64,000 nucleotides of DNA, taken from contig CALSNM010000007.1 of NCBI GenBank assembly GCA_943787725.1, positions 62,001 to 126,000 of the forward strand. The letters run 5' to 3'. A program made the translations under genes and the position numbers. The notes beneath the pieces are model-generated. The model did no database searches and was not told the DNA's origin. It was given only the letters and a program-made list of their open reading frames with translations. The DNA comes from an uncultured Flavobacteriales bacterium (GTDB taxonomy: Bacteria > Bacteroidota > Bacteroidia > Flavobacteriales_D > Parvicellaceae). Shown piece after piece: positions 1 through 20,370 of the stretch; the first letter of the stretch is position 1; each line of letters opens with the position of its first letter.

Positions 1-1854
1 CCAAAGTATTGTAACCTCTTACAACATACTCGCGTGTACCATCATCTCTTTCAACTACGTGGAATCCTGGTTGGCTTAATAATTTATCTCTAATTTCTTT
101 CGGTAATTGTCCTTCATCCGAATCAAAAACTACCGCTACATCTACAAAACCTTCGCTATCATTGGCAAAACCACTAGTATTAATAGGAAGACTTGAACCT
201 TCACCCAGTGTTACGCTAGCAACATCTATACTATATTCCGTACCCAAAGAGTCCTTATATTTTCTATAAGCCAATTCAAAATCAGCATCAGACATCGTAA
301 CTCCAACCTTATTAACCATTGCATCGGGTTTTGTTGCTTTCTCTTCATCTAAATAATCTGGAACACCGTCCAAATCATTATCTAATGGACATCCAAACTC
401 ATCCACAAGAATTCCTTCAGGGGTTTTTGCGCACAAATCAATAAAGTCTACTATTAAATCACCATCAGAATCAATAGAATCTAATTTTTGCATATCATCA
501 AACATTGAAGGCTTATCTTCCTCAATAGAGTCTATTTTTCCAGAATTCAGATCGATAGAAAGTGCAAAATGCGAATATAAAAATCTATCATTTGCCTTAT
601 TCCCTTGTCTGCCTCCCAAACTTTCAATAGTGATTCCATCAACCAAATCAGAAAACGCAAAATGCATGGATGTTCCTACTCTAAATTTTATTCGATCAGT
701 TATGTGAAAATTTGCACCAACTTCTAAAGGAATAGCAAACGTCCTTTCCGAATATTTACCAAAACCATCTAAATCCAATTCTCTTATATCACTTTCATAA
801 ACATAATCTCGATAAATTTCGGTTGCATCTTCAGAGCCAACAGATCCTTCCTCCATATTTCTAATCGTCCCATCAGACCAGTAATTATAGTAATTACCAT
901 TCGCATCGTACATGTCAGATTTGGACAAGAACTCCATTGACTCTATACCAAAAGATATATATGGATCCACATTTCTTTCTGGTTTTAGCAGCTGCTTAAA
1001 ATTATAATTTAAAGTCCACCCACCTGTTGTTATGTGAGAATTGAAATTTAAATTGCGTGTTTCAGACCTTTCGCTTCCACTCACCTGACCAAATAATACA
1101 TAAAAACTTATGTCTAAGTAATCATTAATTGGATTTATCAAGCGTAAATCGTAACCTATTCTACTAACAGTTGGATGATAGCCTTTGTGATTACTCCCTA
1201 TATCTCCATAAAAAGTAAACATCCCTGTCCCCAAACTTAATTGCGGTCTAAATACTATTTCCAATGGCTTCGGTCCTAAACTCTCCTTTTCATTGGAAAC
1301 CTCCATAGCATCTGAAGAGTCTGAAACATCTATAACTGATGTAGAATCTGGAACACCCATAACCGCTGTAGAATCTGGAACACCCATAACCGCTGTGGAG
1401 TCTGGAACACCCATAACCGCTGTAGAATCTGGAACACCCATAACCGCTGTAGAATCTGGAACACCCATAACCGTGTAGAATCTGGAACACCCATAACCGC
1501 TGTGGAGTCTGGAACACCCATAACCGCTGTAGAATCTGGAACACCCATAACCGCTGTAGAATCTGGAACACCCATAACCGCTGTAGAATCTGGAACACCC
1601 ATAACCGCTGTAGAATCTGGAACACCCATAACCGCTGTAGATCTGGAAACCCATAACCGCTGTAGATCTGGAACACCCATAACCGCTGTAGAATCTGGAA
1701 CACCCATAACCGCTGTAGAATCTGGAACACCCATAACCGCTGTAGAATCTGGAACACCCATAACCGCTGTGGAGTCTGTGGTGTTTTCTTGAGAGAAACC
1801 AACAACGGTCAATAAACTGCAAATAAATAAGAATATGAGGTGTTTAATTTTCAT
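1..1854 (-). CDS. Outer-membrane beta-barrel protein with repeat region and thrombospondin type 3 repeats (partial, frameshifted)
   Basis: The start at 1854 opens a signal peptide (MKIKHLIFLFICSLLTVVGF, cleaved after FSQ). Next come about 16 tandem copies of the nonapeptide STAVMGVPD, encoded by a 27-bp minisatellite. After the repeat the minus strand reads an outer-membrane-protein-like segment (KPLEIVFRPQLSLG, then YDLRLINP and FGQVSG), followed at about 350-500 by calcium-type DxDxDG motifs (DSDGDLIVDFIDLC, DNDLDGVPDYLDE) typical of thrombospondin type 3 repeats. The gene runs off the window at base 1, so the C-terminus is missing. Near 1468 one base is missing from a repeat unit, and the frame opened at 1854 stops at 1330. 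Three further lost bases at about 1640-1665 cancel each other. Family resemblance is to Bacteroidota OmpA-like or porin-like surface proteins; the precise function is unknown. Confidence 0.7.
1341..1768 (-). repeat. 27-bp tandem minisatellite, about 16 units
   Basis: Units of the form gtagaatctggaacaccca plus taaccgct (plus strand) follow each other without spacers. Read on the minus strand they encode STAVMGVPD. Three units differ by 'ggagtc' for 'gaatc'. Units near 1468, 1640 and 1665 are 26, 25 and 26 bp long, so they shift frame. The array lies directly behind the signal peptide of the outer-membrane protein gene. Confidence 0.95.
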
Positions 1855-2580: not shown

Positions 2581-4843
2581 TTAAAACTTAAGAATAAGAC
2601 CTGTAAAAAAGTTTATTCCTGCTTGGGGAAAAGCTCCAATCATATTATATCTGCCATCAACACTTTCCTTGTTTGCAAAAGCATCATCAGGCTACAGGAT
2701 TATAATATTCAGATTTGAATTTATAAATCCAAGCATTAGAAACGTATTGCGTATTTGTAAAATTTCTGATCCAAGCGTTCCAAATAATTTCTTTAAATAA
2801 TTTCGTTTTCAAAGAATATTGCAATCGAATATCATTTACAACATAAGCAGCTAGCATTCTATCTGAATTTGATGTGTTATCGATGTATTGGTCACCAACA
2901 TATTTGGTAACAACTGCCAGTTCCATATTTCCATATTTTTTTGAATTTAATGGCTTAAAAACTATTTGACTAGAAGCTATAATATTTGGCGAAAAAGCTA
3001 TATGTGTATTTTCATAATTCGTTTCTACTTGTCCCCATGTATCCCAATCATCAATAAATTCCGTAAATGAAGCTATTTTGTTATCACTAATGGTTGTGTT
3101 CATTTTCCATTCTAAATTCTTTAATAAGGAAATCCCTCCACTTATTTCAATTCCTCTTCTATAAGAGGAAGCAACATTTGTTCTTACAGCTGCGCCAACA
3201 TCATTAATTGCTCCCGTAAGAATTAATTGATTTGTATAATCCATGGAATAAATATTTATATTGGCATAGGCTTTCTTATATTTCAACTTATACCCAAACT
3301 CCAAATCCTTCATACTTTCATGACTTGGACGACTATTTGGCGTTGAATTCGTGTAATCATCTCTATTGGGCTCTTTATTTCCCACTCCAAAAAATGCATA
3401 TAAGGAATGCTTTTCATTTAGCTTATAGTTAACTCCCGCTTTCGGATTAAAGAAGGATGCACTTATAGATTGGCCCGCACTATTTAGTTCATTATCAAAT
3501 CCAAGAAAATTATATTGGATCATGCGTTGTTGTAGATCAAACAAAAGGTTAAGTTTATCACCAATTTTGTAATCAAGTTTTGCGTAAAAATTTACATCAT
3601 TCTTTGTTGCATCATCATCATAATACCTGTGTCTTATTTTACCGTTACTAGCATATTGAGCCCAAATAACCTCACCATAATGACCTCCAATATACTGATT
3701 AGCACCTCCGCCAACGATTAAATTTAGATTTTTCTTAGCATATGTATACGAGAAAACAGTTCCATAAAAATGATTGTCCAACCACCTTCTTCGGATTAGG
3801 TCTGTATTTTCAATAGTATCCCCAGATAGAGTGTTCACGTTTTCCAATCCATAATCAGAAAGAGCATCCTCTGTTCTGTATTGCTCATAATATCCTAACC
3901 CACGCGTATAATGCAAAGAAATATTAAAGTTTGAATACTTTTGAATTTTCTGAACAAAATGCAATTGATAATGAGTTTGATCATAATTATCTACTTCGTT
4001 TTCATAAGTATAAGCATTGTAGGTTCTCAAATCAGTATCAGAACTATCCAAATATCTTACTGGAACTCCGTTCCAGGCTTGATATGTTTTTTCATGTCCA
4101 GAAAAAACAACTGCTTTAAGCATTGTTTTTTCTCCAACATATCCTCCTGATAAATAATATGATTTTAAATCTGAAGAAGCTCTATCAATGTATCCATCCG
4201 ACTTTAATTGAGATAACCTACCTTCAAATGTCCAATTATTATTGAGTAACCCCGTTCCAAATCTCACTGTATTTTTAATTGTATTAAAAGAACCTAAACT
4301 ATTTGATATCTCTCCAAATGGTTTTACATCATCTGAACCAAGTGTATTTAAATTAATACTTGCTCCAAAAGCACCTGCACCATTTGTAGAGGAACCAACC
4401 CCTCTTTGTATTTGAATACTTGCTGTAGAAGATGAAATGTCTGGTAAATCTACCCAAAATGAACCTTGAGATTCTGCATCATTTAAAGGAATTCCATTTA
4501 TAGTGACATTAACTCTTGTAGCATCGGAACCCCTAATCCTAATACCAGTATAGCCAACGCCTGCACCCGCATCAGAAGTAGTGACAACTGATGTTGCCTG
4601 ATCTAGCAAAATGGGTAAATCGACACCATGGTTTTGCTTCTCAATATCATCAGCAGTAATATTCTCATGAGCAACAGGAGAATTTTCATTAACACGGGTT
4701 GCACTAACCACAACTTCATTCAATATCTGTTTTTCAATCGTATCAGGAATTGTGACGACGCTAGAATCAGTATTGTAAACGCTTTGAGAATATCCAGAAA
4801 TTGAAGACAATAAGATACTCAGAAAAATAATTTTCTTATTCAT
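2581..4843 (-). CDS. TonB-dependent outer-membrane receptor, probably for thiamin (frameshift at 3' end)
   Basis: The start is placed at 4843 (MNKKIIFLS, signal peptide ending GYSQS); the longer frame from 4888 adds 15 residues with no signal character. Near residues 40-110 is the TonB box and plug region (ILNEVVVSATR, then IRIRGSDATRVNVTINGIPLNDAESQ), followed by a long barrel. The open frame ends at 2687. Removing one base at about 2689 lets it continue to DDAFANKESVDGRYNMIGAF and on to LILKF, stopping at 2581. The final phenylalanine is the usual barrel-terminal aromatic, so about 753 residues is the true length. A TPP riboswitch lies directly upstream, and pnuT-like and thiamin-binding genes lie beyond it. 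This points to thiamin or a precursor as the ligand (inference). Confidence 0.88.
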
Positions 4844-4907
4844 GATTTTAGGTTTATTGTGTCTTACAAGGGAGTAAGAAAAACACATGTTTTAATTTAC
4901 AATAAAC

Positions 4908-5006
4908 AATCCCTACGCTAGAATTACCTAGATCAGGTTCTTTTCGTCAATCAAACGAAAATGGGTGTAATCTCAGCCTTCCGATAATTATCGGATAGGC
5001 ACCCCC
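4908..5006 (-). promoter_or_regulatory. TPP riboswitch (THI element)
   Basis: On the minus strand the core reads GGGGGTGCC, a P3 hairpin TCCGATAATTATCGGA, then GGCTGAGATTACACCC, a variable arm, GAACCTGATCTAGGTAATTC and AGCGTAGGGA. These are the conserved THI-box blocks (CTGAGA and ACCTGATCT...TAA...AGCGTAGGGA) in order. It lies about 65 bp upstream of the receptor start, so thiamin pyrophosphate would repress receptor expression. No strong poly-U terminator is visible, so control may act on translation initiation. Confidence 0.96.
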
Positions 5007-5020
5007 TTTGAATTAGGATA

Positions 5021-5050
5021 CAAAATTATCTAAATAATAATGTCCAACAA
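5021..5050 (-). promoter_or_regulatory. Promoter for the riboswitch-receptor transcript
   Basis: A perfect Bacteroidota -7 box TAATTTTG (5028-5021, minus strand) has a TTG at 5050-5048, 19 bases further upstream. It sits in the short gap after the kinase stop codon, so the receptor mRNA starts separately from the upstream transport genes and carries the riboswitch in its leader. Confidence 0.65.
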
Positions 5051-5053
5051 TAT

Positions 5054-5566
5054 TTAATTAAAATAATTTGAAAATATTTCCAGAACTCTTTCCAATCGAC
5101 CTGATTCACTGCCACTTACAACTATAAAAGGAACACCTAATTTTATTATCTCTTCTTTATAAATGGAAAACAATTCATCTCTGTTATTCGGATTTTCCCT
5201 TTGCGAATCTTCTTTCCAAGGAAAATCTGGAGAGGCTAATAAGTATAAATCGGGTAGATTATTCTTCAAAAATTCCATGATTTCTGGTTCACAACTTCCG
5301 TACTTGTATTCGCTCCATATTTTTATCGTTAATAAATCGGTATCACAAATTAAATATGAAGGAGTTTGACTAGTAATATCTTTTTCTAATTCCAACTGCC
5401 CTCTTGCAATTAGGACTAAGTCATTTTCATCGTATTCTCGATCTAAAGAATCAATATACTCTCGCGCATATTCTCGCACATGAGGAGTAAACAATGATTC
5501 CGATAAATGTTTGCACAAGGTACTTTTACCAGAAGATTCTGGTCCCGTTATCACTACCTTCTTCAT
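5054..5566 (-). CDS. NadR-like P-loop kinase (AAA_28 family)
   Basis: This is a 170-residue cytoplasmic P-loop protein with Walker A GPESSGKST at residues 8-16, REYAREY around residue 35 and CDTDLLTIKIW near residue 75. The pattern matches the ribosylnicotinamide-kinase domain found at the C-terminus of NadR, here as a stand-alone protein. It overlaps the end of the PnuC-like gene by 4 bases, so the two are translationally coupled. PnuC plus an RNK kinase is the usual nicotinamide riboside uptake pair. Here, however, a TPP-riboswitch receptor lies downstream and a YkoF-like thiamin-binding protein upstream, so phosphorylation of thiamin or a precursor is a real alternative. Substrate is undetermined. 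Confidence 0.8.
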   Translation of the reverse strand: MKKVVITGPESSGKSTLCKHLSESLFTPHVREYAREYIDSLDREYDENDLVLIARGQLELEKDITSQTPSYLICDTDLLTIKIWSEYKYGSCEPEIMEFLKNNLPDLYLLASPDFPWKEDSQRENPNNRDELFSIYKEEIIKLGVPFIVVSGSESGRLERVLEIFSNYFN

Positions 5567-6207
5567 ACAACTTCTAAATTATGTGATTTGTTATCTTCAG
5601 TTGTTTTAAGCCAAGCAAAATATCCTGCAATAGCAATGAAAGCATAAATAAGATATAAAAAACTAGAAATTGTTAAGCCTTTATAAAAATATAACGGAAT
5701 GGTTATAACATCTCCGACTATCCAAAATATCCAGTTTTCAATTTTTCGTTTTGCCATCAACCACATTCCACAAAAGAAGATTGCTGTTGTTAATGTATCT
5801 ACATACGCAGTCCAATTATCAAACTTATCAAAGGCAGTATATATAATACATATAGAACTGCATGCCACCGTAAAAATAATGCTTGTTATTATCTTTTCTT
5901 TATTATTTGTTCTGGAAATATGTAATAAGTCTTTTCCATTAGATTTTCTGGTCCACAAATACCATCCATAAATACTCATTATTACATAAAATATATTAAT
6001 AATAAAATCTCCAAACAACTCCCACTTAACAAGTAAGTAAACGAATATAATAGAAGCAAAAATCCCAGAAGGATAAACGAGTACATTATTTTTTTTTGCA
6101 TACAAAACACTAACTATGCTAAAAAATACTGCCGTTAACTCAAGTGCAATGTCTACCTTGGCGTATGCTGAATATTGACTAAATAGTGTTTCAAAAAGTT
6201 GGTTCAT
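5563..6207 (-). CDS. pnuC: PnuC-family vitamin transporter (PnuT-like)
   Basis: This integral inner-membrane protein of about 214 residues has seven or so hydrophobic segments and PnuC-type signatures (MSIYGWYLW in the middle; NWIFWIVGDVITIPLYFYKG near residues 160-180). PnuC proteins are facilitators that work with an intracellular kinase that traps the substrate. I chose the ATG at 6207 (MNQLFETLFSQY); the frame opens earlier at 6222. The gene overlaps the upstream thiamin-binding gene by 17 bases and the downstream kinase by 4, forming one unit. Context favours thiamin (PnuT), but nicotinamide riboside cannot be excluded from sequence. Confidence 0.85.
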   Translation of the reverse strand: MNQLFETLFSQYSAYAKVDIALELTAVFFSIVSVLYAKKNNVLVYPSGIFASIIFVYLLVKWELFGDFIINIFYVIMSIYGWYLWTRKSNGKDLLHISRTNNKEKIITSIIFTVACSSICIIYTAFDKFDNWTAYVDTLTTAIFFCGMWLMAKRKIENWIFWIVGDVITIPLYFYKGLTISSFLYLIYAFIAIAGYFAWLKTTEDNKSHNLEVV

Positions 6208-6451
6208 AATTGCTGCGATCACTTTTTACAACTTTTAAATTGACAATAATATGTTCTTCATTTTCAAAAGAAGTTTTAATTTCCTTTGTCAAGAATGACA
6301 TAACATTATTGTATTCACCGTAAACTTGAGTGCTCAGAGGATTCTCTATAATAGTAAATTCAGAATCTCTTAATCGCTTAATAAAGTCCTTTATTGGTGG
6401 CTCAAAATCAGTTTTTAACGGCATTAAAGTAAGTTCTACTGAGATCTTCAT
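6191..6451 (-). CDS. YkoF/MTH1187-like thiamin-binding protein
   Basis: An 86-residue protein matches the small MTH1187/YkoF (Thiamine_BP, formerly DUF77) fold: MKISVELTLMPL at the start, a middle helix (PIKDFIKRL), and the signature block NPLSTQVYGEY near residues 37-47. YkoF itself binds thiamin or its pyrimidine part. It is the first gene of a three-gene unit with a PnuC-like transporter and a P-loop kinase. The promoter would lie at 6452-6548, where no riboswitch was seen. A thiamin role is inferred from family and neighbours. Confidence 0.72.
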   Translation of the reverse strand: MKISVELTLMPLKTDFEPPIKDFIKRLRDSEFTIIENPLSTQVYGEYNNVMSFLTKEIKTSFENEEHIIVNLKVVKSDRSNYEPTF

Positions 6452-6548
6452 AGTAGTTTGATTTGGATAACTGCAGCAAATTTAAAGAAAGAAATCTTTT
6501 TATTTTGAACATTTCACTACTTTCGAAGCATAATATAAATTATAAGTT

Positions 6549-7394: not shown

Positions 7395-10300
7395 TTATCT
7401 AACGACTGTTACATCACCTATATATTCATGCCCTTCTCCTTTGTCATCGATTGTTCTTACTAACCAAACGTAAGCATCAACTTGTACTGGAGTTCCTTTA
7501 TGTTTTCCATCCCAACCGATGTCTTTGTTGTGTGATTCGAAAATTTGTTCACCCCAGCGATTGAATACATAGAAATCATACGTGACTGCATCAATACCAA
7601 ATCCTTTTGGTATGAAAACATCATTTTTACCATCATTATTTGGTGTAAATGCACTTGGTGCAAAGAAGATATAGTCTCCATCAATGTGGATTGTTTGTGT
7701 GTATACGTTTTCACAGGTATCTGTTCCATTGATACTAAATAGGGTAAGTGTAATATCAAAGTATCCAGTATCAGAATATAAGTGAGTTGGATCACTCATA
7801 ATTCCAGTGTTGATTGAATCTACTAAAATACTGTCTCCATTTCCAGTAATTGATGTTCCATCTCCAAAGTCCCAAGCATATATTGAGCCTCCAATCGAAT
7901 AATCAATCATCTCAATTACCGGGTTTAGTATAGAAGTTTCTGCCGGAGCAACACCGAAGCTAGCTACTGGTAAATCATGAACAGTAATCATTGCTGTAGA
8001 GTTTATCGCTGTGAAACATCCGTCACCACTAGTTATTAATATACACACATCGTATGTTCCCGGGGTTGTGTAGGTATAATTAAACGTATTATTTGGTCCT
8101 GAGTATTCAGGTATACCATCACAATCGATATCAAATTCGAAGTTTACTCCTATATCTGAGTTGGCAACAAATTGAGCTGTAAATGGAGCACAACCTGATG
8201 AATCAAAGGCCGCAATAAAAGCTTGTGGATTTGGATTAATCGAAACAGTAGTTGATACAGTATCATTAATACTGCAACCATCTGTAAGTACTGCATAATA
8301 GGTTGTTGGTGCACTTGGATTCACATTTACAGTAGACACATTTCCAGATTGTGTACTTGGAACACTATTTCCTGCATCATCATACCATATAAATGTATAT
8401 GGATTTGTAAGTGTGTCTCCACCCGTTGCAGTGGCAACTAAATCTACAGCACCATCAGCACAAATATCAACTGGAGGAGTAATTGTTAAAGCAAGAGGAG
8501 GAGTAACCGTAATCGTTACACATGAACTTACTGGTAAACATCCATTTGCATCTGAAACCGTAGCGCAGTATTGCGTTGTTGTAAGCGGAGCTACCGTAAC
8601 AGGCGCTGAACCAACGTTTGGTAAGTTGTCCCAAGTAACTGTATAAGTTCCATTTAAGAAAGGAGTTCCTCCTTGACCACTTGCCCATACCTGAGTAGAA
8701 TCACCATAACAAATAACCCTGTCGAGATCCGCAACTGCTATTAATTGTGATGGCTCTGTAACGTTTACCAATTGAAAAGCTATACAGCCATTCGCATCGG
8801 TTACTTGAACAGCGTACAACCCATCTTCTAATGCCACTGCTGTTTGTGCTGTTTGTGCTGAAGGGTCATCCCATTGGTAAGCAAACGGAGCTGTTCCACC
8901 AGAAGTATATACTGATGCACTGCCTGTACTATAACCATTACACAAGGGTTCAATAAAAGTAATACTATCAATTACTGGAGCTGCTTCATCAATTACATCA
9001 GCGGTACTACTAACAATACATCCATTCGCATCGGTTACTTCAAAAGGAACAAGACCTGCACACAAGTCCAGTATTATTGCTATTACTCGGAGAGTTTCCT
9101 AGCCCAAACCAGCTATATGCATAAGGAGTTGTTCCGCCGGATGCGGTAATACTTCCCTCTCCATTACAATCAGAACAAGTAGCGTTTACTGTACTTACTG
9201 ATTGCACTAGCACAGGTGGCTCCGTTATCGTAATATCTATTTGTTCAGTGCACCCGTTCGCATCTGTGATACGAACCGTATAAGTTCCTGCACACAGGCC
9301 AGTAACATCAGGACTCGTCAATCCAAGGGGATCCCAGTTATATATATAAGGTGCACTTCCTCCAGAAACTGACACTTGAATTTGTCCATCGCAAAATCCG
9401 AAGCATGAAACATTTTCCAAGTTATCAACCGAAATAACAATGGGTGTTGGTTCCGAAATTGTAACTGAACTTACACTTGTGCAGTTGTTGTCATCATTTA
9501 CTGTTACTGTGTAAGTTCCTTCACACAAGCCTGTTGCTTGCTGAGTTGTCTGACCAACATTCCAACTGTACCCATAATCTGTTGTGACTAATCCACCACT
9601 TGCATTAACAAGTGCATCACCATCACATCCTGTATTACAAGACGCATTGTTGAAGTTAAATATAGCCGAATTCAATGGGTTTGGCTCCGTTATACATGCT
9701 GATTCTGAACTAACACATCCTGCAACATCTGTAGCGGTTAATGAGTAACATCCTCCATCTAATCCAAACAAAGTATTCAAGTTAGTTCCTGCTGGAATTG
9801 GATTTCCAACTCCATCAACCCATTCCAAAGTAGGAACTCCTGTTCCTCCTGTAACTGCATATTGCATTGAACCATCTTGATCACCAAAACACGTTACATC
9901 TGAAGAAGCAACAAAAGTAACTGTTGGTCCTTCAATGTCATTTAAACAAATTACACTGTCTTCAAAACATCCGTTGCCATCTATTACTGTCACAGTATAA
10001 CAATTAGCAACTAAATTAGATGCACAGGCAGTCGTTTGTGTGAATACATCATTCCATTGATAAACATAAGGAAGTGCTCCTCCAAAGATATTTACACAAG
10101 CCGAACCGTTGTCAAATCCGCAGTTTGGATGGGCAATCGACACACTCATTCCAATTTGAGTTGGCTGCGTAATGTTTACAGTTTCAGAAATTGTACATCC
10201 GTTTGCGTCAGTAATAAGGCAAGTGTATATTCCAGAGCATAAGTTATTAACTACAGCAGTAGTAGCAAATGTTGGATCATTCCACTGGTATGTATTACCT

Positions 10301-13300
10301 CCTGAACCACCACTAGCAATTACACTAGCAGAACCATTACAATTCCCAAAGCAATCCACATTAATCGTAGTTGATGTAAGCGCTAATGGGGTAGGCTCAG
10401 TAATTATTGTTGTAGCTGTGGTGACACATCCATTTGCATCTGTTACCGTTACGGTGTAAGTTCCAGCTAAAAGATTACTTGCTGTTACTTGAGATCCAGC
10501 TCCATTATCCCATAAATATGTATATGGAGCTATACCTCCTGAAGGACTAACCTCTGCAAAACCATCACTATAACCATTACAACTAACGTTACCTGTTAAA
10601 TTAATTGCTGCTTCAAGGACAGTTGGCTGCGTCACAATTGCTGAAACCGTTGTTTGACAGCCATCTGCATCCGTTATTGTACATATATAATTACCCGAAC
10701 ACAACCCAAAGGCAGTCGCTCCTGTTTGATTACCTGTAGATGCTCCCCATTGATAACTAAAAGGTGTCATTCCAACTATTCCCGCTGCAGTAGCTGTTCC
10801 ATCACAGGCTCCAAAACAAGAGATTTCGGTTGAACTAGCAGATCCTGTTACTTGATCAGGCTCTCCGATGGAGTAATTCAATATATCGGTGCATCCCTGA
10901 CTATCAACTATTGATAATGTATAAGATCCTGCACATAACCCCCCGATGGAGTCTACAGTTCCTACAGTAATGTTGTTTACATCCAACCAGCTATAAGAAT
11001 AAGGTTGTGTTCCTCCAATTGTTGCAAGTGAGGCAATACCATCACATGATCCAAAACAAATAGTATTGTAGAAAGTTTGAATCGAAATCATTACGTCCGG
11101 TTCTGTAATTTCAATAGATATTGAAGCATTACATCCTATTGAATCGGTAATTGTAACAGCATAAAACCCTGCAGCTAAGTTAGAAGCTGTTGGAGTAGTT
11201 TGACTTCCCGCATTAACATCCCATAAAGCAGTAAAGAATCCATTACCTCCAATCATATCTACTGTTGCTGAGCCATCATTAAAACCATTACAGCTAATCA
11301 TAGATGTATCTACAATCATTGCAGACGGTCCATTTAAATCTTGAACTTCAATACATATAGTAACACTGCAACTATTTGCGTCTGTCACCAATACACAATA
11401 GGTACCCGCTAATAAATTGGATGCGCATGAGTTGGTGGATCCATCTGGCCATAAATAACTATAAGGAGAGGTTCCTCCACTTGCTATGATACAAGCATTT
11501 CCATCTGGCAGACCACAATTTGCATTCACCACTGTAGAGTCCAAAGTTAAGCTTGTTGGCTCTGATATAGTAACAGGTGCTGTTGCTGAACAACCATTCG
11601 CATCAATAATAGTAACATTATATGTTTGAGCACATAAATTAAATGCTGTAATAGTTGTTTGCATTAACGGATCATCCCATTGATATGTGTATGGAAATGT
11701 CCCTCCCACCGCAGCTGAAGAGGCCTCTCCATCGCAATTTCCAGAACATGAAGCATTAACATTAACAGACGTTGCAGCCATAATCAAAATTGGCTGATTA
11801 ATCGTCCCTATTCCACTGGATGACACACATCCATTCGCGTCTGTAATAGTTACATAATAGTCTCCTGCAGTGAGTCCTGTCGCCGTGATACTATCTTGCC
11901 CTTGAGAGATATTTGAAGCATTGAACCACTCATAGTGATAAGGAGCAGTTCCTGTTCCGCTAATTGAAGCAGTAGCTGTTCCATTTGCATCGCCAAAACA
12001 CAATGCATCTGTAGTAGAGGTAACAATTACATCACCTGGAGGAATATCTCCAACAGCTGCAGTTGCCACTTGTGTGCATCCATCAGCGTCTACAACCACT
12101 ACAGTATATGTATTAGGGATTAAATCGATAGCAGTTGCAGTTGCTTGTGTTAATGCATCATCCCAAGTATAAGTAAACGGAGTAATCCCATTGGTTGTTG
12201 TTACGGTTGCATCTCCTGTTGGCGTTCCACAGAAAGCGTCAGTGAAGGTTGTTGCTAATTGGATTTCCAAAGGCTCTCCGATTATTGCGTCAATACTAAA
12301 TGTACATCCCAATGCATCTGTTACAGTTACGGTATAGGTTCCGGGGAATAATGTAGAAGTAGTAGCAGCTGTTGTTTGCCCTGCTGCATCATTCCATGCG
12401 TATGTATAAGGTGCTGTTCCTCCTGAAGCAATCACCGTTGCATTTCCATCAGAGTATCCAAAACAAGTAACATCTGTTGAAACTGATATAACAGCATTGA
12501 GTGCTGTTGGTTCTACAATGGTGACACTAACTGTTGCTTGACAACCAACATCATCAATCATTTCACCTACATAGGTTCCTGCACATAAACTAAGTGCACT
12601 CGCAGTTGTTTGACCAATTGGATTGTTGTTATTGTCATACCAAGTATAGTTCAATGGAGGTGTTCCCCCAAATATTTGAATTTGAGCAAAACCATCACAT
12701 CCAGCATTGCAACTTACATCTGTTTGTGTTAAGATAGTTGCTGAAGGTGCTCCTAAATCAACTACACATATATTTATTAACTCACTACATCCATTCGCGT
12801 CTGTTACTGTAACATCATAACATCCAGCAAATAAATTAGAGGCGATTGCCGTTGTTTGACTTCCTGCGTTAGCATCCCACTGATAGGTAAATGGAGCAAC
12901 TCCCGTTACAATGGTAACTTCTGCAGCTCCATCATTTTGGTTACAGTTAGATCCTGCCATTGATCCCGCAAGAACCAGTGCGATAGGCTCTGTTACCGAC
13001 TGTGTCTCTGTTATTGTACATCCATTTGCATCCACTATAACAACGTCATAGGTTCCTGCACAAAGATTATCTACTGATGCTGTAGTTGTTAATGCAGGAT
13101 CATTCCATTGATAGGTAAATGGAGGCGTTCCTCCTGCTGGTGAGGAAGTAATTGTTCCATCACATGCAGCATTACAACTTACATCCACAAATGAGAACAC
13201 ATTTCCAAGTACCGGCGGTTTAGATAATGTAACATCAAATGTTTGAGAACATCCGTTAGCATCCGTTACAACTACATCGTACGTTATAGCGCAAAGGTTG

Positions 13301-16300
13301 GTAGCTATTGGTGTAGTTTGATTTCCTGTATTTGCATCCCAAGCATATGTGTAAGGTGCTGTTCCGCCAGTTGGAATAACCTCTGCAGAGCCATCACAAG
13401 CTCCTTCACAAGAAACATCAAATCCATTGTAGTCAGATATTACAGTAGCAGCTCCTGCAAGTACTGTTGGTTCGTTAATTGTTTGAATAGTACTGTTATG
13501 TACAATACCATTTGCATCCGTTACGACTACAAAATAATCGCCTGCACATAATCCTGTTGCAGTTGTGGTTGTTTGTCCAATAGGATTACCTGTTGCTACC
13601 GACATCCAATCGTATGTAAACCCTGGCATACCTCCACTTGCAATTACTGTAGCTTGTCCATCACATACCCCAAAGCAAGTAACATCTGCACCTGTTAGGG
13701 TTGTAAAAATTGCATTTGGCTCTATGATTGTAAGACATAATGTATCAGCACATCCGTTAACGTCTGTAGATACAACAGCATAATCATCCGCACACAATCC
13801 AATTACATTTGGTCCAGTTAAAGCTCCATTTAATAAAGTTGCAGCACAATCATTAAACCATGTGTAAGTTATTACTCCTGTTCCGCCTGTAGCTAGTACA
13901 TCAGCAGTTCCATCACATACACTTGCTCCAGAAGCATCTACTGTTGATACAATGGAAGTAGCTACCGGTACAGGTTCAGTTATCGTTGTTGAGAAAGATG
14001 ATGTACATCCATTTACATCCGTTACATCAACTGAATACGTTCCTGCGCATAAACCTGTAACATCTGGTGTTCCTTGTCCTGCTGCTGGCAATGGTGACCA
14101 TACACTTGAATAAGGTGCAACACCACCTGTAATCGTAATACTAATTTCTCCGTCACAATACCCATTACAAGTAGCATCTACTTGATTGGCAAGTACGGTT
14201 GTTGGTCCTGATAAATCAGAGACAGTAGCAAGTGCGGTTCCTACACAACCTACATTATCCATTACTGTTACCGTATAAGCTCCTGCTGGAACTGTATTTG
14301 TGTTAGCTACGGGGTTTCCTAACCCATCAACCCAATCTTCTGTAGTATAAAACCCAGAACCACCTGTTGAAGTTGCTACTGCAATCGCTCCATCTGATTG
14401 ACCACAGTTAGCATCAATAGCAGCTGTTGTTATAACAACAGGTGTTGGCTCTGCAATGGTTACACATTCAGTGATAACACACCCGTTATCATCGGATACT
14501 GTAACACAGTAAGTTCCAATAGCTAAACCTGTTACGGTAGGTGTATTACCTACACTTGCAGCGGTTGCCTGATCTACCCAATCATATATATAGTCTACTG
14601 CAGCTGTACCACCTGTTACAGTTGTTGTAACCGTTCCATCTGAAAACCCATTACAAGAAGCATCTGTTGCTGAACTTGTAATAGCAAGTGGAGTAGGTTC
14701 TATTATTGTTTCTGTGGCAGTTGTTACACACCCCACAGCATCTGTTATAGTTACATTTATTGCACCTGCACATAACCCTATATTAGTAGTTGAGTTGGTA
14801 GCTGCTCCTGAATCCCACAAGTAAGTATATGGTGCCGCACCTCCCGTCATAGAAACAGTTGCCTGGCCGTCACAGAAAGTATTACATGAAGCATTATTGT
14901 CTATTACTATTGCAGCTGTTCCTCCAGTAATATCGTTTACAACAACTGTTGCTGTTTCAACACAACCGTTAGCATCAGTTACTGTAACATTGTAAGTTCC
15001 TGAAGTTATTGCACTAGCACATAATGTTGTTTGTGCCGATGGATCATCCCATAAATAAGTATAACCAGCTGTACCTCCGGATGGAGTAACACATGCTTCA
15101 CCATCTGCTTGAGAACAGTTCGCATCTGTTTGACTAGTTACTAAGACTAAAGGTGCTGGCTCATTAACCGTGTAAGTATCTGTTGCAGTACATCCATTAT
15201 CATCTGTAACGGTAACTTCATAAGTTCCGGCACAAACCGATGTTTGGTTTTGTAATGCTGGTGTTGGTCCATCATCCCAAAGGTAAGTAAGTGTTCCTGT
15301 TCCTCCAGTTGCAGTTGCTTCTAATGTTCCATCGCATATAGCATTACAATTTAAGTCTGTTCCGGTAACTGATGTTACAGCTACCGCTGTTGGTTCTGTA
15401 ATAGAAATAGTTTGGGATGTTGATACTCCGTTGGCATCAACTACTGTTAATGTATATGATCCTGCACATAAACCTGTAAGATCTTCTGCAGTTGCTCCAC
15501 TACTCCAAGAGTATATATATGGGGGAACACCTCCAGTTACTGTTGCATCAGTTTCACCGATACAAACACCATTACATTGGATATCTACTGTTGTTATTGT
15601 AAGGATAATTGCTCCTGGTTCGACAACCGTTACACAAGCAGTAGTAACACATCCTGTTACAGCATCTGTTACCATTACACAGTAAGTTCCTGCACAAAGT
15701 CCCGTTGCATTTTGCGTTGTTTGTGCTGATGGATCATCCCATAAATATGTATATGTTCCTGATCCACCTACTGGGGCTACTGTTACTTCGGCGTCACATA
15801 AACCAAACCCTGATGCATCTATTACTACAGAGGCAGTAGCTGTTGGACCCGCTAAATCGTTAATCGTTACACTTGCTATTTGAGAACATCCTTGAGCGTC
15901 TGTTACCGTTACGTTATAAGTACCTGCAACAATGTTTGAAGCACATGCTGTTGTTTGAGCACCCACGTCGTTCCATGCATACGTATAAGCTCCTGTTCCA
16001 CCTACTGCAACAACACAAACTTCTCCGTCCGCTTGTCCACAGTTAGCATCTGTACCAGATGTTGTAAGGATAATCGCAGTTGGTTCTGTAACTGTTACGA
16101 TGTCTGTTGCAGTGCAACCGTTTGCATCTGTAACTATTACATTAAATGTTCCATCACATAATCCAGCTACATCTTCTGAGGTAGTAGTCGCTGGATCATC
16201 CCATAAATAAGTTAAAGCACCGGTTCCCCCCGTTGTTGTTAAATCAGCCGAACCATCACATACTCCATTACACAATGGATCTGCACCTACTATTGCTGCA

Positions 16301-19300
16301 GTTAATAAATCTGGATCTGTAAGCGTTACATCAGCAGTTGTCGAACAACCATTCGCATCCGTTACCGTAACTGTTTCTGTTCCGGCACACATTGCAGTTT
16401 CATTAGCAGTATTTCCACCACTTGTCCATGCGTATGTATATGCAGTGGTTCCACCAGCTACTGTTACATCCGCTGTTCCATCACATACAGCATTACATAA
16501 TGGGTCTGTACTAGAAGTTATTGCTGCTGTTAAAACAGCTGGTTCAGTAATGGTAACAGTTGCAGAAGCAACGCATCCTAGAGCATCTGTTACATCTACT
16601 GAATTTACACCTACACATAAAGCAGTAGCTACATCTGTTGTTTCTCCATTACTCCATAAATAGGTAAATGCTGGATTTCCTCCTGCCATTGTTACAGTAG
16701 CTCCACCATCACATACTCCGAAGCAAGATACTTGGTTATCAATAATTGTTGTTGCGGTTCCTCCTCCTAAATCATTTATTGCCGCAGCTATTGTTTCTGT
16801 ACAGTTGTTTGCGTCAGTAACAATTACTGTATAAGTACCTGCTGGTAAAGTTCCTACAAATGCTGAAGTAGAAGCACCTGGATCATCCCATAGGTACGAA
16901 TATCCAGGAGTCCCTCCCGCCGCTACAACAGAAACGTCTCCATTTGAAGCTCCACAAGCTGCATCATTTGAAGCTGGAGTTAATGCTATTGCTATCGGTT
17001 CGTCAATTACTACCGATCCAGTTGCTGTACACCCTTGTGCATCTGTAACTGTTACGCCTGCTGTTCCTGCACATAAAGTATTTGTTGTAGTAGCTGTTGT
17101 TCCTAATCCACCTGCAGCATCCCACTGATAAGTATATGCAGATGTTCCACCTGCAGCAACAACAGTTGCATCACCATCACAAACACCATTACATGATGCA
17201 TCGTTTCCAGTAACAAAGACTGTTAATAAGAGAGGTTCTGTTACTGTATAAGAATCGGTTGCGGTACATCCTTCTGCATCTGTTACAGTTATGTTGTAAG
17301 TTCCCGCACACAGTCCAGATGCTGTTGCATTGATTCCTGCTCCACCATCCCATGCATAAGTATAAGGGGCTGTTCCACCTGCGGTAGCTGATGATGTTGT
17401 TCCATCACATACAGCATTACAAGAAGCATTGGTTCCTGATGCAGCTACAGTTACAACTATTGGCTCTGTAACTGTTGCATCAGCTATTGCCGTACATCCA
17501 TTCGCATCTGTTACAGTTACTGTGTAAGTTCCGGGACATACAGTTCCTAGTTGATCTTGTCCCGCTCCTAACACACTCCATGAGTAAGTATAAGGTGCTG
17601 TTCCGCCAGCCCCAACTGAAGTTACATCTCCATCGCATAGACCATTACATGATGCATTTACCGATGCTGCTGTTACAGTTAGCTGATTAGGTATACTAAT
17701 CGTTTCAGTGGAAGTTGCGGTACATCCGTTTGCATCCGTTGCAGTCACTGTATAAGTGCCTGCACAAACATTTGTTTGGGTTTGGCTTCCTGAAGATGGT
17801 CCTCCATCCCAAGAATAGGTGTATCCGGGCGCTCCTCCCGAAGCATTATCTCCAGTGAGGGTACCATTGCATACTCCAAAACAAAGAGCATCAGTAGATG
17901 CTGAAGTCATAATAACTTCCGCTGGAACTGCAACTACAGCAACATCAGTCGCTACACATCCATTACCATCTGTAAAAGTAACTGTATATGCTCCTGCTCC
18001 AACTGCATGAGGCCCAGCTGTATTTTGACCAAAACTCCAAGAATATGAACCAGGATCAGCAGAGGATGCTGCTACTGATCCATTATCACCAAAACATAAA
18101 GCATCTGCAGGTACTGCTGTTACCGCCGGAATTGGATTGATTGTAATAGGCAAAGTTATAGCTCCAACACAACCATTATCAGTAACCGAATAAGTCACGT
18201 TATAGACACCAGCAGTGGGAAAAGTAATATTAGAAGGGTTTTGATCAGCACTTGTTGCAGGAGTTGCCCCAGGAAAAGTCCAGCTGTAAGAATCACCACT
18301 GTTGTTTGGCGTATTATTAAAGTTAACATTATTCGTGGTCAAACAAAAATCTCCTCCAACAGTAAAGTTAGCGTCTGGAAGTGGATTAACCGTAACCGTA
18401 GCTGCAGCATTAGCATCTGGACATCCAACAGTACTTCCAATAACTGTATAGCTTGTTGTAGCTGTAGGAGAAGCTGTAACCGCAGCTCCGGTTGTTGGGC
18501 TAAGACCAGTACTTGGGCTCCAAGTATAAGTAGCAGCACCAGAGGCAGTTAAATTTATACTTTCCCCCAGGCATATTGTTCCGCTATTAACTGTAACTAT
18601 CGGTGCGGGATCTACTTGAACAGTGATAGTTGCCGTGCCAATACATCCATTTCCATCATCAACTGTTACTGTATAAGTTGTTGTAGATGTTGGAGCAGCA
18701 ATAGGTGTAGCGGAAGTTCCAGAACTGAGACCTGTTGTAGGAGACCATGAATAGGTACCTCCTCCAGTTGCAGTTAAATTTGCACTTCCACCATCACAAA
18801 TAACTATTGTTTGTCCAGTACCTGGCCCCACAGTCCCAGATAAAACACTAGTTCCAGTAATAGTTGGAGCGGTTCCTGCTAAAACAGTAACAACAACATC
18901 ATCTTCAGATACCCCTCCTCCGCATAAGGGGTTTCCAATATTTGAAGAAACCGTATAAGTTGTAGTAGATCCCGGAGAAACAGTTATTGATGAAGTAGTT
19001 GCTCCACCCGGCGACCAAGTATATGTGCCATCACCACCGGTAGCTGTTAGTGTAGTGCTTACGCCAGGACAAATAGAAACATCTGATCCCGCATTAGCTC
19101 CTACCAAAACTCCATTATTTGTTATAATTTGGTAATCACAAACATCTCCAGCCCAACCATCAATAACCAAGTAATATGTATTTCCTGGGGTTAAGCCAGT
19201 TGCATTAAAAGGGGTGGTCCCGGGTGCCATAGGACTGACGCATCCATAACTAGTTATCGCACCAGAACAACCTCCATCAAAAATCATCATCTGTATACCA

Positions 19301-20370
19301 TCATTCCACGTACAATTAGAAACAGCTACATCAAAAGAGACGGATGAAGCATCCGCCACAAAAGTCAAATAAGAGCTATTCTCAATTGACCCACAAAAAG
19401 CTGAATTTATTTGAGTTGAATAAGAAGCTGAATAAGCTGCACTGGTATTACCGCAATAACTCGTTAAATCACAAATTGGAACAGCATTAGCGCATAAATC
19501 CGCAGCTACAGGATTACCTCCACAGCCAGGAGGTGGCACCTCTTGGTTAATGATCAAATCAAACGGAGTACAATCCGGCGATGGAAATGTTGAAATAACA
19601 ATGTAATAAGTTTGGCCACCAGTTAAATTTAGATTCTGAATATTGGGAAGACCAGCGGATTGGGTGTCTGAACCAATACAGTTTGTACCTCCTGAATCAG
19701 GACAACCGTCTAAGACAAATATCCCGGTCCAAGTTGTAGTGCCATTTGTTATAAATTCAAATGGACCCGTTGCAGATGGGGTGAATGACAAAACATAATC
19801 CTCTCCATTCATATAGGAAGAACCACAAGCGCTAGTTGAACTGTAACAATCTCCTGCACCACAAGTAGTTAACCCAGTAACCTGATAAGGCATTGTATTT
19901 ACGACAAGAGCATTTGCACAGTTTCCTCCAACTATACCATCTCCACAGCCGCCACCGCCACCGCCACCGCCGCCACCAGAAACGTATGAAAGTGTGCTAG
20001 TGTTACAACCAGTGGCAGTACCGCAGCTTGCACAATCAGTGTTGTAGTGAACATAGTAGGTCCCAGAGGATGCAGCAGTCCATTGAACTGGCGAGGTTCC
20101 AAAACCAACAACTGGACCGGTCGGACTACCACTTGTAATGGTAATGCAACCACCAGCACTCAAAGAAGATTCGTAAGTCGTTCCTGCAACTGCGCTGGAA
20201 ATTGTGTTGTACTCTGTCTGATATTGGCAAGTACTAACATTTACAGTACCATTAGTTGGTGCGACGGCACTACCGTATGATGAGGTATTGTTGCACTGTG
20301 CCATTATATTAGGACTTAATATCCAGGTAAAGAATAACATTAAAAGGGCAACAAAAATTCTTAATAACAT
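7395..20370 (-). CDS. Giant SprB-like repeat adhesin with gliding-motility C-terminal sorting domain (one frameshift)
   Basis: About 4,324 residues once one extra base at about 9062 is removed. The open frames are 20370-9040 (3,776 residues) and 9065-7395, and the join restores the repeat consensus TGLCAG. Order: signal peptide (MLLRIFVALLMLFFTWILSP, cleaved near MAQC), a Cys-rich N-terminal domain, a ten-glycine run, a PPC-like beta domain, four Ig/PKD-like beta modules (TTTYTVTVDDGNGC type), then about 40 SprB repeats. After these come two PKD-type domains (YTTPGTYDVC, AWDFGDGTS). The protein ends in a type B T9SS domain (FTPNNDGKNDVFIP, FNRWGEQIFES, W-G-K-G-Y, ending VTVVR). SprB-type proteins are exported by the type IX system and carried along the cell surface in gliding. 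It is probably cotranscribed with the small gene 8 bases upstream. A cargo role in gliding or adhesion is inferred. Confidence 0.93.
8690..18120 (-). repeat. Array of about 40 SprB-type protein repeats, roughly 80 residues each
   Basis: The coding period is about 240 bp. A typical unit reads ASCNGVCDGDATVVAAGGT, then a short Y-T-Y-x-W-D strand, then LCAGTYTVTVTDANGC and a T-E-P linker. I counted 39 units before the frameshift and one or two after it. Some units replace C-N-x-x-C-D-G with C-G-Q-x-D-G and N-D-L linkers. Two units (near 15820 and 13930) begin D-A-S-G and lack the first cysteine. Confidence 0.92.

Follow-up and report, generated by a model that had tools for sequence, protein, structure and literature searches.

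Gene organization of the locus

The window, a 64,000-nt stretch of one contig from an uncultured member of the Flavobacteriales, carries on its reverse strand (-) a compact group of overlapping genes followed by a TPP riboswitch and an outer-membrane receptor gene. The first gene of the operon (6191-6451, -) encodes a small YkoF-like protein of 86 aa that is predicted to bind thiamin. Its match to the Pfam family Thiamine_BP (PF01910) is weak, at 22.8 bits (E = 9e-5) slightly short of the 24.9-bit cut-off, and it also matches PF07615 (E = 1.3e-3), with 2ibo as the nearest solved structure (E = 9e-4); all 11 YkoF homologues of the module match PF01910, the best at 6.5e-9. Overlapping this gene by up to 32 nt is one for a PnuC-family inner-membrane transporter (5563-6222, -; listed with a GTG start, an ATG at 6207 also being possible), which belongs to PF04973 (169.7 bits, E = 7.8e-50), scores 92.8 bits against the NCBIfam model TIGR01528 and matches the solved PnuC structure 4qtn in a phmmer search. 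It is predicted to be a thiamin carrier, in the role of PnuT. The transporter gene in turn shares 4 nt (ATGA) with the gene for a stand-alone NadR-type P-loop kinase of 170 aa, hereafter KIN (5054-5566, -), whose sole domain is AAA_28 (Pfam; 107 bits, E = 1.5e-30) and whose best NCBIfam match, NadR, is confined to the kinase part.

Beyond the riboswitch lies an ORF for a TonB-dependent outer-membrane receptor (2687-4888, -; PF00593, E = 2.5e-20; PF07715, E = 4.3e-11), likely starting at the ATG at 4843, ahead of a signal-peptide-like stretch. Homologues of this receptor come after KIN in most relatives, and the protein is predicted to be a thiamin receptor in the role of Omr1/OMthi. The first-pass annotation had described overlapping YkoF-like, PnuC and NadR-type kinase genes together with a riboswitch and a receptor; all were found at the positions it gave, and Pfam and NCBIfam agree on their names. 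Elsewhere in the window, the reading frame of a giant repeat adhesin-like ORF (9040-20370, -; 3776 aa) is broken near 9070, and the C-terminal part of the protein continues in another frame as ORF 7395-9065 (-); the break looks like a one-base frameshift and is perhaps an assembly error. A short ORF at 1330-1854 (-) has a signal-peptide-like start and tandem STAVMGVPD-type units, with frame slips between units.

Riboswitch and promoters

The TPP riboswitch aptamer (4893-5015, -) begins ~40 nt past KIN, upstream of the receptor gene. Its alignment to Rfam RF00059 is full-length (4893-5013; 43.2 bits, E = 1.6e-7), but the score lies below the curated gathering score of 54.3 bits, which explains why a default Rfam scan missed it. 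A model (R1) built from 21 related aptamers, the window riboswitch included among them, returned 70 bits over 4902-5015. Just upstream, at 5021-5028 (-), TAATTTTG matches the motif TANNTTTG, the -7 box of Bacteroidetes promoters. Of 62 related riboswitches, 46 carry the motif in the 45 nt that precede them, where shuffled sequences predict 2.1; over the window as a whole it is not enriched. The box and this enrichment make it very probable that the receptor gene is transcribed from a separate promoter under riboswitch control, in agreement with the first-pass annotation.

The YkoF-PnuC-KIN operon has a candidate -7 box too, TAAATTTG (6477-6484, -), 25 nt ahead of the YkoF start; as a single-site match it is weak alone. 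The search with the riboswitch model returned no riboswitch upstream of this operon in the window. In the predicted leader fold, the 3' side of P1 pairs with nucleotides immediately ahead of the start codon of the receptor gene, which suggests, as a hint from folding, how the switch might work.

Conservation of the module in relatives

Conservation was assessed in a close sample of 60 same-order genomes, in which absence calls rest on family searches, and in 80 named KIN loci from across Bacteroidota. KIN is present in 37 of the 60 same-order genomes, and the order YkoF, PnuC, KIN, TPP riboswitch and receptor recurs in same-order loci, some genera lacking YkoF. Since this order is kept in related genomes, it is not a product of chance. 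A TPP riboswitch lies no more than 1.5 kb from KIN in 23 of the 30 same-order loci fetched. Among the named loci, PnuC is upstream of KIN in 52 of the 75 with enough upstream sequence and a TPP riboswitch occurs within 4 kb in 28 of the 66 with enough downstream sequence; in about a fifth (15/80) the expected neighbours are all missing.

Three lineages have a second TPP riboswitch, which stands before the YkoF, PnuC or KIN genes: ahead of the YkoF gene in L018 and in L004/L032, two records of a single genome, and in Marivirga arenosa (L088) before PnuC-KIN, with another after KIN. The earlier proposal that the riboswitch gates only the receptor thus describes the genome of the window and does not extend to all relatives. 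In one relative (L029), PnuC and KIN are fused in a single ORF. Together, the fusion and the riboswitches before these genes tie KIN itself, beyond the receptor, to TPP. Other KIN fusions carry an aldose epimerase domain (L155) or a GNAT acetyltransferase (L160), and in four loci (L044, L066, L079 and L098) a gene for an MFS-type transporter, possibly an alternative carrier, overlaps or abuts KIN in place of PnuC. The PnuC proteins linked to KIN and those linked to NadR separate only in part in a PnuC tree, and neither this phylogeny nor conserved PnuC residues gave a usable signature for thiamin versus nicotinamide riboside.

Distribution of KIN, TPK, ThiC, ThiE and ThiL

The first-pass annotation had called for a check for other thiamin kinases. 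Run with PF04263, it detected no thiamin pyrophosphokinase (TPK) in the genome of the window, nor in any of the 60 relatives. None of the 13 relatives with ThiC is among the 37 with KIN (Fisher p = 2e-7), and the ten with neither are mostly incomplete genomes. Clear ThiE was found in 15 of the relatives, all KIN-negative, and ThiL above cut-off in 56 of the 60, the window's genome among them. As judged by the markers PF04263, ThiC and ThiE, KIN-bearing relatives therefore have ThiL and no recognised source of its substrate, thiamin monophosphate (TMP).

The same pattern extends to a class sample of 197 nearly complete Bacteroidia genomes, in which KIN, counted at E < 1e-20, was found in 106, ThiC in 62 and TPK in 39. 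Among the 135 ThiC-negative genomes, 99 have KIN only, 29 TPK only, seven neither and none both (Fisher p = 3e-23, treating genomes as independent); two of the seven with none of the three markers also lack ThiL. At least nine families include species with KIN and species with ThiC, in four cases within one genus, and such splits inside families cannot be explained by common descent alone or by one old event. ThiL was detected in 98 of the 99 KIN-only and in 29 of the 29 TPK-only genomes. Retention of ThiL was accordingly dropped as proof of a TMP product, because its presence in TPK-only genomes leaves the product of KIN undecided on this marker. At an E-value threshold of 1e-50, the KIN-only genome G187 and the ThiC-positive genome G217 gave no ThiL match. 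ThiC is absent from the at least 16 genomes that encode a TenI-like protein near KIN (0.5-4 kb).

KIN and ThiC were counted together in seven class genomes. One of these (G151) was discarded as an exception, its protein being a true NadR (L152), and two (G096 and G211) are real co-occurrences. Four genomes of one genus, which have ThiC and TPK, encode a KIN-DUF4301 fusion of about 735 aa beside PnuC (L146-L149), with a TPP riboswitch before the receptor in three of the four loci. These exceptions soften the exclusion pattern without breaking it.

Comparison of KIN with NadR

KIN carries the Walker A, DTD motif and D..R lid that mark the NadR kinase domain, and shares G8, G13, K14, E32, R35, D75, D120 and R123 with NadR. 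Its structure model (pLDDT 95.3) is closest in fold to NadR (8x7f, TM 0.90; 1lw7), followed by thymidylate kinases. The NMN adenylyltransferase domain (GKF.P.HKGH, CTP_transf_like), present in the NadR controls L141 and L152, is absent from the 170-aa KIN. In a tree of 148 kinase domains, the 134 KIN sequences group together (support 0.75), with the KIN-DUF4301 form as their sister (0.94 for both combined) and NadR outside. Three positions distinguish the branch: W84 is present in 134/134 KIN sequences, whereas 9/10 NadR proteins have Y/F; Y45 occurs in 133/134, against 0/10 in NadR, which has L/F/M there; and E124 occurs in 131/134, against 1/10 in NadR, where other residues mostly occupy the site. 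That these near-fixed residues differ from NadR suggests an altered pocket in KIN.

Five genomes (G073, G113, G186, G201 and G246) encode KIN together with a separate NadR containing both NMNAT and kinase domains (L141-L145). Four of these five nadR genes adjoin their own pnuC, and no TPP riboswitch was found at any of the five loci. Across the class sample, NadA is about as common with KIN (67/106) as without it (60/91), and the two are not associated (p = 0.77). The genome of the window, which is 82% complete, gave no match to NadA or to the NAPRTase family PF04095; the latter is a poor marker of niacin salvage, matching 23 of 197 genomes and missing a Bacteroides control. Some use of nicotinamide riboside by this genome is possible. 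To our knowledge, the activity of NadR-type kinases is limited to nicotinamide riboside.

Proposed thiamin salvage pathway and alternative readings

From gene content and regulation we infer, with a probability of roughly 80%, that KIN converts thiamin taken up by the cell to TMP, from which ThiL makes TPP. The host would then be a thiamin-requiring member of the Flavobacteriales and the cluster its vitamin B1 salvage module. In this scheme, for which we infer the substrate, the TMP product, the direction of transport and the off-behaviour of the riboswitch, thiamin would cross the outer membrane through the TonB-dependent receptor and the inner membrane by facilitated diffusion through the PnuC-family carrier in its PnuT role; the small YkoF-like product is probably thiamin-binding. 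KIN, presumably a descendant of the NadR kinase domain that has lost the adenylyltransferase part, would use ATP to convert thiamin to TMP, thereby trapping it in the cell, and ThiL, encoded elsewhere in the genome, would convert TMP to TPP. Binding of TPP to the riboswitch ahead of the receptor gene would reduce receptor synthesis, closing the loop. Transporters of this family are generally accepted to work in this way, the substrate entering by facilitated diffusion through PnuC or PnuT and being trapped once phosphorylated (PMC7221760, PMC7749635). The suggestion in the first-pass annotation that the kinase acts on thiamin is strongly supported by the mutual exclusion between KIN on one side and TPK and ThiC on the other, by the TPP riboswitches at KIN loci and by the missing link to NadA; its alternative substrate, HMP, is unlikely, as KIN-bearing relatives lack clear ThiE.

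Membership in the NadR kinase family and the best fold matches to NadR would also suit a nicotinamide riboside kinase, with PnuC as its importer and the thiamin receptor adjacent by accident or through shared import needs. Members of the PnuC family often carry nicotinamide riboside, and the lack of NadA and PF04095 matches in the window's genome points the same way. We nevertheless regard this reading as unlikely, as it leaves unexplained both the exclusion with TPK and ThiC and the TPP riboswitches ahead of YkoF, PnuC and KIN genes. Moreover, KIN does not track NadA, KIN-bearing genomes exist with separate NadR-PnuC pairs, and KIN lacks the adenylyltransferase domain required to convert NMN to NAD. 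A relaxed specificity, under which the cellular substrates of KIN would include thiamin and also nicotinamide riboside or a different vitamer, is chemically conceivable, both compounds having a primary hydroxyl group as well as an aromatic ring that bears a positive charge, and would accord with the branching of KIN from NadR kinases and the lack of NadA in many KIN genomes. The near-invariant Y45, W84 and E124, which differ from NadR and suggest a changed pocket, together with the absence of a link to NadA, make such dual use very unlikely.

Two further readings keep KIN in thiamin metabolism and assign it another reaction. Formation of TPP in one step, with KIN replacing TPK (ThiN/Tnr3) as a pyrophosphokinase, would match its position, the one that tnr3 holds next to pnuT in Bacteroides (PMC5613172), and its substitution for TPK in the exclusion pattern. 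This we consider improbable: the P-loop fold of the NadR/thymidylate-kinase type transfers one phosphate, KIN has no match to the TPK catalytic domain PF04263, and the near-universal ThiL of KIN-only genomes fits a TMP product, with the reservation that ThiL persists in TPK-only genomes as well. Phosphorylation of HMP, or of the thiazole alcohol, instead of thiamin is suggested by at least 16 class-sample genomes (e.g. G077:C1:20630-22358) in which KIN and a gene for a TMP synthase/TenI-like protein are 0.5-4 kb apart, and by a stronger TMP-TENI match in some KIN genomes. Clear ThiE is absent, however, from all 37 KIN-bearing relatives, and several nearly complete ones (G005, G013, G042, G043, G051, G053, G057 and G059) lack any TMP-TENI match, so that HMP phosphate would be unusable to them; in the window's own genome, the TenI-like match (G000:C1:65615-66115) is broken by three stop codons and may therefore represent a decaying gene. 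This makes HMP or the thiazole alcohol an extremely improbable substrate. Collectively, these comparisons favour thiamin as the substrate of KIN and TMP as its product.

Implications for vitamin B1 metabolism in Bacteroidia

We consider it likely that this branch of the NadR family, marked by W84, Y45 and E124, serves the class Bacteroidia as its dedicated thiamin kinase and substitutes for TPK in most thiamin-requiring lineages. KIN would represent a probable change of substrate in a family of P-loop kinases, for which these three residues are candidate determinants of specificity. Family models currently label it as NadR or AAA ATPase, and as a candidate thiamin kinase KIN would correct the automatic 'nicotinamide riboside' annotation of itself and of its PnuC partner. 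Thiamin salvage requires a phosphorylating enzyme, which the TPK marker misses in 99 of the 197 Bacteroidia (those with KIN and neither ThiC nor TPK). If the assignment is correct, KIN supplies the missing step in most of the sampled Bacteroidia that are unable to make vitamin B1, and pipelines seeking only TPK, ThiK or ThiC misjudge KIN-bearing bacteria as non-users of thiamin. Exchange of vitamin B1 in microbial communities would be better predicted from genomes in which KIN is named.

Comparison with known systems

The closest known arrangement is the thiamin salvage operon of Bacteroides, in which omr1/OMthi, pnuT and tnr3 are associated with TPP riboswitches and the enzyme is TPK (PMC5613172). 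Unlike that operon, the module described here has a NadR-type kinase in place of thiamin pyrophosphokinase and an additional YkoF-like gene, and the riboswitch in the window precedes the receptor only. The window transporter resembles PnuT of Shewanella and Bacteroides in its PnuC-family membership and its linkage to a TPP riboswitch and thiamin genes, its own specificity being predicted. With NadR and PnuC, the module shares the kinase domain family and fold as well as the coupling to PnuC for metabolic trapping; KIN differs from NadR in lacking the NMNAT and DNA-binding domains, in forming its own branch with W84, Y45 and E124, in its association with TPP riboswitches, and in coexisting with a distinct, genuine NadR in five genomes.

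Only ThiK, ThiM and ThiN appear as signature enzymes of thiamin salvage in a large reconstruction of vitamin metabolism (PMC6593275). In the open-access literature searched, no NadR-type thiamin kinase had been described; subscription papers or curated regulon databases may hold such a prediction. The type of system is thus already known, and KIN would be a further, unrelated enzyme solution within it. In its proposed reaction, thiamin and ATP giving TMP with ThiL finishing the pathway, KIN resembles ThiK (YcfN) of Escherichia coli. ThiK is an aminoglycoside-phosphotransferase-like protein, whereas KIN is a P-loop kinase, and on this basis KIN would constitute a non-orthologous replacement of ThiK.
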